Made by a program: the position numbers and the translations under genes | The notes under the pieces: generated by a model | Told to the model about the DNA's origin: nothing | Seen by the model: the letters and a program-made list of their open reading frames with translations, nothing else | Databases searched by the model: none | In this document: piece after piece, positions 31,549-36,543 of the stretch | Layout: each line of letters opens with the position of its first letter | Numbering within the stretch: the stretch's first letter is position 1 | Source of the DNA: Myxococcales bacterium | Lineage (GTDB): Bacteria; Myxococcota_A; Polyangia; Polyangiales; Polyangiaceae | Direction: 5' to 3' | NCBI GenBank assembly: GCA_903642325.1 | Contig: CAHJWM010000008.1 | Coordinates: forward strand, 62,001-126,000 | DNA length: 64,000 nucleotides

Positions 31549-33051
31549 TCAGCCTGGGACGGGAGTTGATTCGGGCTCGGCTGCGACTACTCGATTTCGT
31601 CCCCCACGCTTGGCAGCGTAGAGCGCCTCATCGGCGCGCAGAATGAGGTCCCGCATTTTTCCTGCGCAGCCGGGACCGCATACGCCCGCGACGCCGAAGC
31701 TGGCCGTCACCGCGAGCTCCCCCGACGGACCGGCAATCTTGAGCGCTTCAATGGTGCGCCGCAGACGTTCGGCGACGATTTTGCCGCCGACCGCGTTGCT
31801 GCCGGGCAAAATCAAGATGAACTCTTCCCCACCGTAGCGCGCGGACAAGTCGCTGCCGCGCAGCTTGGAGCCGAAAACTCGGCCCACTTGTCGCAAGACT
31901 TCGTCCCCGGTGAGGTGGCCGTAAGTGTCGTTGACCTTTTTGAAGTAATCGATGTCGCTGAGCACGACCGTGAGCCACGTTTGATCGCGATCGGCGCGCG
32001 ACAGGTCGCGCAGCAGGGCGTCTTCGAAAGCTCGCTTGTTGGCCAAGCCCGTGAGAGCGTCCGTGGTAGCCAGCCGCGAAAGCTGGGCATTGGCCTCGAT
32101 CAACTGACTGCTCAGCTGGTCTTTCTGGACCAGCAGCGCTTCCAACCGACGCACGGCAATGTCGTAATTGTGCGTCATGTCGAGCAGACAGCGGTTGACG
32201 TCGACCAGCAAGCTTTCGACGCTCTGTTGCGGGCCAATGTCTCGATCGAACGCCGTGGCCGCCGCCACCACCATGTCGGGCAGCTCTTTGGTAGCCTCTT
32301 CCAGGTCTCCCTGGCTCAGGCCGAGCGAAAGCACGGCGTCGAGCGCCAGTTTACGATTGAGGAGGGGATCCCCTCCTTCCCACATCCCTGCCAAACGTTC
32401 GGCCGCCCACGCTACACGGGAGGGTAAAGCATCGGGCGGCACGTCGGAGTGGTGTTGCAAAACTGCCGCTTCCACGTGAGCTGGTAACATGAAGCTTGAC
32501 GCCAGCGAGGCTCCGGCGGCGGGATGATCGGCGAACCCCGCGGCGCGCTCGTGCATCACGCGATGCACGGCCGGAAGCCGCGCCACCTCGGCGGCGCCAC
32601 TCAGATCCTCGCGCGCGCGAGCCAATAGGCCGACCTCGAGAAATAAGCCGGTGGTAAAATACTCGTCGACGTCTTTGGACCCCAGGCGTTGGGCAAGAAG
32701 CCGTGACGCTACGGCACGTCGCAGGGAATTCGCGAGCAGGATCCGCCCCGCCTCGCCCACCGGTATCATGTCGGACAAGGCGAGGCTCATGCCGATGCTG
32801 CGTAGGCCCCGGATGCCTACGAGTGAGACCGCTTGCCGAACGTCCGAGACGTGACGCTGCGGACCAAAAGCGGCGCTGTTTACCATGGCCATGATGCGGA
32901 GCGCGAACCCAGGGTCGCTCTCCGCAAGATGTGATAGTTTCGGTAGCGACGTATCCGGCGCCAAAGACTCGCGCACGATCTGGAGCGCTATCAATGAAAG
33001 CGGTGCCTTCGTGGACGGTTTCGCTGGAGATGATGAAACGTGCGCGGGCAT
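31549..33051 (-). CDS. HDOD-GGDEF protein, predicted active diguanylate cyclase
   Basis: 500 residues. Residues about 15-230 form an HDOD domain (LPKLSHLAESDPGFALRIMAMVNSA, VSLVGIRGLRSIG), a helical signalling module. A coiled-coil linker (LEALLVQKDQLSSQLIEANAQLSRL) leads to a GGDEF domain from about 335: TTDALTGLANKRAFEDAL, LSDIDYFKKVNDTYGHLTGDEVL, then the signature YGGEEF with an RGSD inhibitory site exactly five residues before it. Active-site and product-inhibition motifs are intact, so it should make c-di-GMP. There is no membrane segment. ATG 33051. Confidence 0.93.
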   Translation of the reverse strand: MPAHVSSSPAKPSTKAPLSLIALQIVRESLAPDTSLPKLSHLAESDPGFALRIMAMVNSAAFGPQRHVSDVRQAVSLVGIRGLRSIGMSLALSDMIPVGEAGRILLANSLRRAVASRLLAQRLGSKDVDEYFTTGLFLEVGLLARAREDLSGAAEVARLPAVHRVMHERAAGFADHPAAGASLASSFMLPAHVEAAVLQHHSDVPPDALPSRVAWAAERLAGMWEGGDPLLNRKLALDAVLSLGLSQGDLEEATKELPDMVVAAATAFDRDIGPQQSVESLLVDVNRCLLDMTHNYDIAVRRLEALLVQKDQLSSQLIEANAQLSRLATTDALTGLANKRAFEDALLRDLSRADRDQTWLTVVLSDIDYFKKVNDTYGHLTGDEVLRQVGRVFGSKLRGSDLSARYGGEEFILILPGSNAVGGKIVAERLRRTIEALKIAGPSGELAVTASFGVAGVCGPGCAGKMRDLILRADEALYAAKRGGRNRVVAAEPESTPVPG

Positions 33052-33816: not shown

Positions 33817-34083
33817 TTGACCAGCGCCCCTTCTCGCGAGCTCCAGGTATTGTACTTCGCTGCGCTTCGTGAGCTCGCGGGTCTAGCCGAGGAGCGCGTC
33901 ACGCTACCCTCCGAAGTGGTGACCGTACGCGACCTAGTCCTGCATTTGCAGCGGATCCATCCTGGTTTGACGGGCAGATTGCTCTCGGTACGAGTCGCCC
34001 TGGACGAGGCTTTCGCAAACGATTCGGACGGCTTGGCTGGCGTGAGCGTGGCCGCGCTGATCCCCCCCGTCGCAGGCGGCTAG
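33817..34083 (+). CDS. moaD: MoaD/ThiS-family sulfur carrier (molybdopterin synthase small subunit-like)
   Basis: 88 residues with a beta-grasp pattern (LQVLYFAALRELAGL, VTVRDLVLHLQ) and the diagnostic C-terminal Gly-Gly (IPPVAGG) that is adenylated and thiocarboxylated. Together with AALREL near the N-terminus this favours MoaD over ThiS. No ATG or GTG is available; TTG 33817 is the likely start. There is no moaE or other molybdenum-cofactor gene nearby, so its partner is elsewhere. It is followed within 50 bp by the RNase HII-like gene. Confidence 0.83.
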   Translation: MTSAPSRELQVLYFAALRELAGLAEERVTLPSEVVTVRDLVLHLQRIHPGLTGRLLSVRVALDEAFANDSDGLAGVSVAALIPPVAGG

Positions 34084-34131
34084 CGGAGATTGCTACGTGC
34101 GGCGCGGAAGGTTACGCTCCCCCAGGCTCGA

Positions 34132-35085
34132 GTGTCTTTCGAATTTCGCGTTGGTGCAGACGAAAACGGGCTCGGCGCCCGACTAGGGCCCTTGGTGGTC
34201 ACCGCGGTGCTCGCTCGCGTCAGTGAGCGCGGGCATCGCACGCTCAGTCGTAAGCTGCCCCGCGCCATGCGCGCGGATCTAGATGATTCCAAGCGTTTGC
34301 TCACCCACACCGATGTGAGCCTCGGCGAAGCTTGGGCCCGCGTGCTGGCCAAGAAACCCGTGTCTTCGCCCGCCCAGCTGTTCGAGCAGCTTTCACTGGA
34401 GGGCTCGAGCCAGCTCAAAAAGCCGTGTGAGTCGCACGTTACCCGCCAATGTTGGAACGAGCAGGGCGAAGTATTTCAGTCCCAAGCCAGCATGCTTGCG
34501 CGCGTGGCCAAACACCGGGAGGGGCTGGCGGAGCGCGGCGTGGAGTTGCTCTCGGTGCGCAGCAGCGTCGTCTGCACGAAGCAACTGAACCACGCCCGCG
34601 ACAAGGGCACGAATCGCTTCGTGGCCGACTTGAACGCGATGGAATCATTGGTCCTCGAACTGCGCGCGGAAGCCGGCTCCGAGGTGGAGGCGGTGTGCGG
34701 AAAAGTCGGCGGAATTGGCGCCTACTCGAAATTTTTCGGCCCACTTTCCGGTCGTTTGCACGCCATCTTGGGCGAAGGGCGCGCCCGCAGTGGCTACCGC
34801 TTTCCCGGCTTGGGAGAGATCCACTTCGTGCGTGACGCGGATGCGGGTGACCCTTTGGTTAGCCTTGCCTCGCTGATCGGCAAGTACGTGCGGGAGCTGT
34901 TCATGTCGCGCATCGGCGGCCACTACGCGGAGAGCCAGCGGAGCGACGACCGCCGTCCCAGCGGGTATCACGATCCGATCACGGACGCCTTCGTCTTGCG
35001 CTCGGAGCTGCTCCGGCGCCGCCGCAAGATCCCCGATCACTGCTTCGAGCGCGAGCGTGCCTTCGAGCCCCTGGCCGAAGTTTGA
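34132..35085 (+). CDS. Divergent RNase HII-superfamily protein
   Basis: About 317 residues. VGADENGLGARLGPLVVTAV near the N-terminus and LDDSKRL after it align with the RNase HII opening (GVDEAGRG ... GP, DDSKKL), and LVSLASLIGKYVREL with the AAASIxAKvtRD helix, followed by SGYHDPITDAF. Of the four catalytic acids, the first Asp and Glu remain; the third (vDG) position reads VCGK and the fourth is Glu instead of Asp. The GRG substrate motif reads GLG. It is longer than normal RNase HII. The start is uncertain: GTG 34132, or TTG 34090 with poor spacing. It lies between moaD and a MATE gene (3-bp gap). Activity may be altered or lost. Confidence 0.68.
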   Translation: MSFEFRVGADENGLGARLGPLVVTAVLARVSERGHRTLSRKLPRAMRADLDDSKRLLTHTDVSLGEAWARVLAKKPVSSPAQLFEQLSLEGSSQLKKPCESHVTRQCWNEQGEVFQSQASMLARVAKHREGLAERGVELLSVRSSVVCTKQLNHARDKGTNRFVADLNAMESLVLELRAEAGSEVEAVCGKVGGIGAYSKFFGPLSGRLHAILGEGRARSGYRFPGLGEIHFVRDADAGDPLVSLASLIGKYVRELFMSRIGGHYAESQRSDDRRPSGYHDPITDAFVLRSELLRRRRKIPDHCFERERAFEPLAEV

Positions 35086-35088
35086 GCC

Positions 35089-36543
35089 ATGTCCGAGGCC
35101 TCTGCCAAACGCATTCTGTCGGGCCCGCTCGGAGCTGCCGTTCTGCGCTTCGGCACTCCACTTGCTTTGGGCATGGGGCTGCAAACCGCATTCAATCTGA
35201 TCGACGCATTCGTGATCTCGCGCTTGGGTGGGGCCACTGCGGGTCCCGCGCTCGGCGCGATCGGCATCTGTGACCAGCTCGCGGCGCTCGGCACGATCGT
35301 CAGCTACGGCTTGAGCGTGGCAACGGCGACCTTGATCAGTCGCAAGGTCGGTGAGAGGCAGCCAGACGCCGTCAAAGAGATTGCCTGGCAATCCGTGCTT
35401 TTGATCGCCTTCCTCTCGCTGGTTTTCGGGGTATTGGGCGGCGTCGGTGCAAGTGTCGTGCTGCGCGACATAGTTGGCGCCAAGGGTGAAGTAGCCAACT
35501 TGGGCGTGCCCTACTTGCGCGTGATGCTGAGCGGTTCGTTCACCATTTTTTTGCTCATGCACTTGACCAGCGTGCAGCGCGCGCTCGGCAGCAGCAAGAC
35601 TCCGGTCGGCATGCTGGTCGCTTCGAACGTGCTGAACTTGGTTCTAGCGGTCGTGCTCGTATACGGCCCCGGTGACGCACCGGCTATCCTGTCATGGGGG
35701 CGCCCGATCGCGCGGCTGCTCGGCATTCCGCGCATGGGCTTGATGGGCGCCGCGTGGGCCACTCTCCTCGCTCGCTTCGTCGTGCTGGTCCCGCTGATTG
35801 CCATCCTGATGAAGCGCTTCGGGCTCTTCGGCAAGAGCTCACGGCTCGCGCCTCACTCGCAAACCATCGCCGCGATCGTGCGCTTGGGTTGGCCCTCCAG
35901 CGCCCAGCTCGTCATGCGCATTTTAGCCATGCTGCTCACGCATTCGCTGGTCGCGCGCGCTTTTACGACACCCACGGACCAGACCGCGACCACCGCTTTG
36001 GGCATTGTTTTTCGCCTGGAAACCATGGCCTTGTTCGTGGGCCTGGGTTGGGGAAGCGCCGCCCAGACTTTCGTCGGCCAGAACTTGGGCGCACAAAACC
36101 ACGAGCGCGCCAAGCGGAGCGGCTGGTACGCGGCACTGTACAACGCCTTCATGATGGGTTCGCTCGCGCTCGTTTACAGCTTGTTCGGTCAGCGCATCGT
36201 CGGCTTCTTCGACTCGGATCCAGAGGTGCTGCGGCCGGCGCTCACTTACTTGCGCTGGGTCGGACCAAGCTACCTCGGCCTCGGAATCGGAATCGTGCTT
36301 GGTTCCGCCATGCAGGGGGCCGGTGCGACCCTGCGCGCGCTCGCGCTCGATACCCTAGTCATCACCGGCTTTCAGCTACCTACGAGCGTGCTCTTCATCC
36401 TATGGTCAGGTGCGACGTACGTGGGCTTGTGGCGGATCGTGGCCTCGACCTATTTTCTATCGGCGTTGGTGTACGTGATCAGCTATCGCCGCGGTCGCTT
36501 CTTGAATGCGGTACGCACGGGGGCACCCGTACCTGTCGCCTGA
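35089..36543 (+). CDS. MATE-family efflux transporter
   Basis: 484 residues with about twelve membrane helices in two six-helix bundles, the MATE arrangement. The opening GPLGAAVLRFGTPLALGMGLQTAFNLIDAFVIS, LGAIGICDQLAALG, YLRVMLSGS and GWGSAAQTFVGQNLGAQNHERAKR with QGAGATLRA are typical. MATE proteins export organic cations, drugs or metabolites by Na+ or H+ antiport; the substrate is unknown. The ATG is 3 bp after the RNase HII-like stop, so the two genes are probably cotranscribed. Confidence 0.93.
   Translation: MSEASAKRILSGPLGAAVLRFGTPLALGMGLQTAFNLIDAFVISRLGGATAGPALGAIGICDQLAALGTIVSYGLSVATATLISRKVGERQPDAVKEIAWQSVLLIAFLSLVFGVLGGVGASVVLRDIVGAKGEVANLGVPYLRVMLSGSFTIFLLMHLTSVQRALGSSKTPVGMLVASNVLNLVLAVVLVYGPGDAPAILSWGRPIARLLGIPRMGLMGAAWATLLARFVVLVPLIAILMKRFGLFGKSSRLAPHSQTIAAIVRLGWPSSAQLVMRILAMLLTHSLVARAFTTPTDQTATTALGIVFRLETMALFVGLGWGSAAQTFVGQNLGAQNHERAKRSGWYAALYNAFMMGSLALVYSLFGQRIVGFFDSDPEVLRPALTYLRWVGPSYLGLGIGIVLGSAMQGAGATLRALALDTLVITGFQLPTSVLFILWSGATYVGLWRIVASTYFLSALVYVISYRRGRFLNAVRTGAPVPVA

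Follow-up and report, generated by a model that had tools for sequence, protein, structure and literature searches.

What does a protein do that keeps the RNase HII fold and lacks both its substrate motif and one of its catalytic aspartates? The question is raised by a single gene in the window, the name used here for the whole 64,000-nucleotide stretch of a Myxococcales contig that was analysed. Few bacterial repair genes are kept as widely as that of RNase HII. The two-metal site of these enzymes consists of four carboxylates, DEDD in RNases HI and HII and DEDE in RNase HIII (PMC9719913). A sequence-only reading of the window had described the gene product as an RNase HII homologue with altered motifs, and had proposed a structure prediction, a check of orthologues and a search of the rest of the genome for a normal rnhB.

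The gene and its neighbours

The open frame at 34132-35085 (+) was confirmed as a genuine ORF. Its longest reading, from TTG 34090, gives a coding sequence at 34090..35085 (+) for an RNase HII-like protein of 331 aa, assigned below to the DEN clade. An equally possible start at GTG 34132 gives 34132-35085 (+) and 317 aa, and matches the start of most homologues. Residues such as Asp24 and Gly204 are counted from TTG 34090, and all residue coordinates lie on the plus strand. The window protein scored 30 bits against PF01351 (RNase_HII), above the cut-off of 25.8, and 26.9 bits against TIGR00729, below the cut-off of 123.3. All NCBIfam RNase HII equivalog models were far under their cut-offs, so that standard pipelines would hardly name the protein. 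The PADLOC defence models gave no match to it.

As described in the sequence-only reading, the gene is placed between moaD and a MATE gene, with the ThiS/MoaD-like gene upstream at 33817-34083 and the MATE gene downstream at 35089-36543. This neighbourhood is kept in close relatives only, according to rough gene calls that did not work at many loci, and it was dropped as a functional hint because it is not kept past near relatives. Two genes upstream lies an ordinary HDOD plus GGDEF signalling protein, at 31549-33051 (-).

Predicted fold and family

An AlphaFold2 model of the window protein, built with 68 relatives, reached a pLDDT of 95.4, and its core has the strands and helices of a type 2 RNase H, into which two segments are inserted. 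The structure prediction proposed earlier thus returned an RNase H2 fold, and in a Foldseek search against the PDB the first 33 matches were all RNase HII/H2/HIII, with E values from 5.6e-7 to 2.6e-2 and the RNase HIII structure 4py5 at the top. Entries of D107N T. maritima RNase H2 are among the matches. D107N is the Asn mutant of the third catalytic Asp, used for trapping substrate complexes.

Orthologues were found in 156/290 Polyangia genomes, and distant ones in Planctomycetota. In a tree of 144 sequences, two groups, called DEN and DEA, are separated by one branch with an SH-aLRT support of 100. The DEN clade comprises 104 sequences from Polyangia, including the window protein, while the 39 sequences of the DEA clade are nearly all from Planctomycetota, with four Polyangia f18 genomes and a few Actinomycetota-labelled or other records. 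A DEA protein, L079, gave an AlphaFold2 model with a pLDDT of 94.4 and the same structural neighbours. Literature searches, which covered papers readable without a subscription, found no description of the DEN/DEA family. It is a real, conserved and uncurated family, a variant of type 2 RNase H that is new to description.

Catalytic and substrate motifs

Both stretches on which the likeness to RNase HII had been founded, the opening GADENGLG..GP and LDDSKRL, are present. GADENGLG (34153..34176) aligns with canonical DEAG and holds Asp24-Glu25, the first catalytic pair, and both residues are present in 102/102 DEN members that cover the site. The GRG substrate motif is absent; it reads GLG in the window protein (within GLGARLGP), as had been claimed, and within the DEN clade its middle residue is L or M. 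The DSK motif, Asp66-Ser67-Lys68 (34285..34293), is invariant across all family members.

The third catalytic Asp had been read as Cys/Gly, and profile alignments agree. Cys203-Gly204 (34696..34701) aligns with canonical LLID, which puts Gly204 in the column of the third Asp. Position 204 is Gly in 104/104 DEN sequences, versus Asp in 38/39 DEA sequences, and Cys203 is found in 97 of 104 DEN sequences. A Gly in every sequence of the clade is neither chance nor a sequencing error, and the orthologue check thus showed that the altered positions are conserved. The fourth acid was misread as Glu. It is Asp251 in RDADAG (34840..34842), which hhalign aligned to the Asp of canonical KGDA. The Glu presumably came from VREL, whose Glu269 lies opposite the Asp of canonical "KxxRD", a position outside the DEDD four. 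Among the 104 DEN sequences, 101 have Asp and 3 have Glu at position 251; among the 39 DEA sequences, 25 have Glu and 14 have Asp there.

Further along the chain, Ser261...Lys265..Arg268-Glu269 (34870..34896) is the counterpart of canonical AASIxAKxxRD; S261, K265 and R268 are invariant in DEN, and position 269 is Glu in 103/104 and Asp once. Gly292-Tyr293 (34963..34968), which corresponds to the canonical GY(P/G)T found close to the substrate, is invariant in all sequences. The DEN invariants (D24, E25, K68, S261, K265, R268, G292 and Y293) stand amid a median column entropy of 2.2 bits over 104 sequences. The metal site has therefore stayed constant, where a dead one should have accumulated changes, and this constancy suggests that the metal chemistry is retained.

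Inserted segments, conserved cysteines and Asp180

At 331 aa, against roughly 190-220 for ordinary RNase HII, the window protein carries the extra length of about 100 residues that had been noted. The first extra segment, about residues 85-158 (34342..34563), separates the DSK region from the third core strand and appears as a gap in the hhalign comparison with canonical RNase HII. In the AlphaFold2 model it forms four short helices, and it contains Cys113 (34426..34428; 104/104 DEN) and Cys121 (34450..34452; 103/104 DEN). The lone exception at Cys121, L113, has a cysteine seven residues past its Cys113 equivalent and is probably misaligned. Two further DEN-specific cysteines are Cys162, right after the third core strand (34573..34575; 104/104), and Cys318, near the C terminus (35041..35043; 103/103). 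This four-cysteine set is DEN-wide and absent from DEA, and from its conservation the four residues probably bind a structural metal.

The second extra segment, residues 205-247 (34702..34830), is likewise an insertion relative to canonical RNase HII and bears a KxGGxxxY ... SxY signature. Its GG207/208, Tyr212 and Tyr236 are conserved in DEN and DEA, so that the window protein has the family signature together with both insertions.

Asp180 (34627..34629) is a candidate replacement carboxylate in the helix before the Gly204 strand. It is present in 100/104 DEN and 0/39 DEA sequences, the four DEN exceptions having H, T, N or L. In the numbering of the AlphaFold2 model, a helix (162-181) is followed by a strand (185-190) that ends in Gly204, with Asp180 one turn into the helix. 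On this model, no clade-specific acid other than Asp180 is plausibly placed to supply the missing carboxylate, and we take the position of Asp180 to match topologically that of the catalytic Glu48 of RNase HI. Asp295 was also considered as a replacement and rejected; it is DEN-invariant, yet it corresponds, with a shift of one residue, to DEA Asp296 and to the Asp of archaeal GYxxDP.

Comparison with known enzymes

With RNase HII (RnhB, PF01351, TIGR00729) the window protein shares the fold, the DE pair of strand 1, DSK, the fourth Asp, S..K..R, GY and the genomic niche. It differs in having GLG for GRG, Gly for the third Asp, about 100 further residues in two extra segments, and four conserved Cys. 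As GRG and the third Asp, two tested defining features, are both absent, it was not filed as RNase HII. RNase HIII (RnhC) shares with the family the fold and, in most DEA members, Glu as fourth acid as in DEDE (PMC9719913). In contrast to RNase HIII, the window protein has no GKGD motif (GLGARLGP instead), no TBP-like domain, since at most 23 residues precede the DE pair, no third Asp and Asp as fourth acid.

A GMS-type RnhB of Polyangia (DEAGMSPLAGP) is likewise a GRG-less RNase HII of the same bacteria, with a full-length PF01351 match. Unlike DEN proteins, it is of ordinary length (about 190 aa) and keeps all four catalytic acids. The DEA clade, e.g. L079, shares length, insertions and the KxGGxxxY signature with DEN and forms one family with it in the tree, but it keeps the third Asp (38/39), has DEAxG and lacks the four-cysteine set.

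Distribution against RNase HII and RNase HIII

A normal rnhB was looked for in the window's genome, which is 99% complete; no RnhB was found there, and RNase HI is present. Across 290 Polyangia genomes, 146 have the family only, 112 a PF01351 match only, 10 both and 22 neither, an exclusion with a Fisher p of about 1e-44, uncorrected for kinship. One genome tallied as having neither, G083, was later shown to have the family, and most of the others in that class are incomplete. None of the 10 genomes with both carries a GRG enzyme: nine have the GRG-less GMS-type RnhB, and the tenth has a partial sequence matching that type. Over 284 genomes sampled across the phylum, the family and PF01351 were found together in 3 versus 38 expected, one of the three (G647) being a weak partial match. 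Another of the three, G523, comes from outside Polyangia and has both a strong family match (contig C78, 7224-8156; 1.5e-67) and a PF01351 gene (2.6e-29).

A similar search of 199 Planctomycetota genomes gave a strong family match in about 179 and a PF01351 match in 68. Among the 27 genomes with both that were read, 23 showed the RNase HIII signature and none a GRG RNase HII. Of 12 genomes read that are without the family, eight had a GRG RNase HII and four the RNase HIII signature. RNase HIII and the DEA sister clade therefore coexist in this phylum, and the overall picture is of a family that substitutes for RNase HII and is compatible with RNase HIII.

Local changes follow the same line. 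Most members of f18 have a GRG RnhB, and four f18 genomes without RnhB carry the DEA form instead; these four are local switches between RNase HII and the DEN/DEA family. Their proteins (L129, L130, L131 and L133) have Cys-Asp at the third acid (CDKAGGR), in genomes without the RnhB common in f18. Within Polyangiales, DEN is missing in 7/16 fairly complete holders of another RnhB, and G184 is the only fairly complete genome that lacks DEN among those without another RnhB. GMS-type RnhB loci are L031-L046, L106, L107 and L221-L223 in Polyangiales and L101 in the same class; this type is the RnhB of the Polyangiales genomes that lost DEN, and it stands beside DEN in 10 genomes.

Shared ancestry inflates co-occurrence counts of this kind. 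Among independent pairs on a LepA tree of the order Polyangiales, 3 went the expected way, 0 went against it and 5 were tied (p = 0.25), so that the exclusivity is in part shared ancestry, and the independent-pair test is suggestive only.

Probable function and alternative readings

On balance, and with modest confidence, the window protein may be assigned to a branch of type 2 RNase H not described before, one that takes over from RNase HII in Polyangia and, via the sister clade, in Planctomycetota, and that is most likely still a metal-dependent nuclease acting on RNA-containing DNA with a three-carboxylate site. Such an enzyme would retain divalent metal binding and would cut at single embedded ribonucleotides or in RNA/DNA hybrids. 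Its four-carboxylate site (Asp, Glu, Asp, Asp) would have been cut down to Asp24-Glu25-Asp251, Gly having taken the place of the third Asp on its strand, and the missing charge would be either dispensable or supplied from elsewhere, Asp180 being the best candidate. Three essentially invariant carboxylates, the restriction of position 251 to Asp or Glu and the RNase HII niche favour a working nuclease with an RNase HII-like duty. Against it stand the strand position of the third Asp, which to our knowledge is near-universal in RNase H-fold nucleases and whose Asn mutant serves to trap substrate complexes in T. maritima RNase H2, and the four exceptions to Asp180 among 104 sequences. What the sequence-only reading had seen as a conserved fold with changed chemistry holds for the fold and for the losses of GRG and the third Asp; its proposal of a new activity or a non-catalytic binder is not the best reading.

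A one-step rewiring of the active site is a bolder version of the nuclease reading, which is put forward tentatively and is itself unlikely. The catalytic carboxylate would have left the strand, where Asp became Gly204, for the helix before it, where Leu became Asp180. This shift would have been coupled to the gain of a metal site of four cysteines, for zinc or iron-sulfur, which would hold the remodelled protein. If this were true, the four-cysteine site might tie ribonucleotide repair to metal or redox state.

It is also rather improbable that DEN proteins are non-catalytic nucleic-acid binders, which would have lost cleavage with the third Asp, would be stabilised by a cysteine-bound metal and would recognise RNA-DNA junctions or hybrids uncut, their hosts relying on RNase HI and other repair. 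The complete loss of the third Asp across DEN, the RNase HI of the window's genome and the existence of RNase HI-only bacteria (PMC1950709) are consistent with this, as is the GMS-type RnhB carried by some DEN lineages; however, D24, E25 and D/E251 are fixed while the median column varies freely, and DEN was lost in Polyangiales mainly where another RnhB is present, which a separate job would not predict.

More doubtful is a nuclease with a different substrate, whose exclusion with RNase HII would be a legacy of a DEA-type ancestor in which RNase HII had been replaced and would not reflect current functional equivalence. Two large family-specific insertions and the loss of GRG, which is known to recognise junctions, point that way, as do the sparse independent pairs and a gene neighbourhood with no conserved link to ribonucleotide repair, but replacement has repeatedly gone in the same direction, in f18, in at least three Polyangiales lineages and in several Planctomycetota. 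Least credible, and very improbable, is an alignment artefact with an intact third Asp elsewhere and nothing unusual: conserved acids do lie nearby (Asp180, Asp249 and Asp295), but Gly204 ends its strand next to the KxGG motif that also flanks the Asp of DEA, two profile comparisons agree, and Asp295, having its own DEA and archaeal counterparts, is no substitute.

Significance

In a 2007 survey, a planctomycete was one of the few bacteria listed as lacking RNase HII (PMC1950709). As a replacement, the DEN/DEA family would fill this gap in about 179/199 Planctomycetota genomes and in the Polyangia without RNase HII. For well over a hundred genomes, curated equivalog annotation would call ribonucleotide excision repair missing. 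The DEN clade would also offer a direct test of whether the RNase H fold can do without its third Asp or can replace it.

A mixed member in IMG/VR

A phage origin was considered and rejected; a single distant family member was found in IMG/VR. This member, on contig L297:3001-3849, is mixed, with the DENGYG motif and a retained third Asp (VCDRIGGR), which shows that the Asn of DEN can occur without the loss of that Asp.
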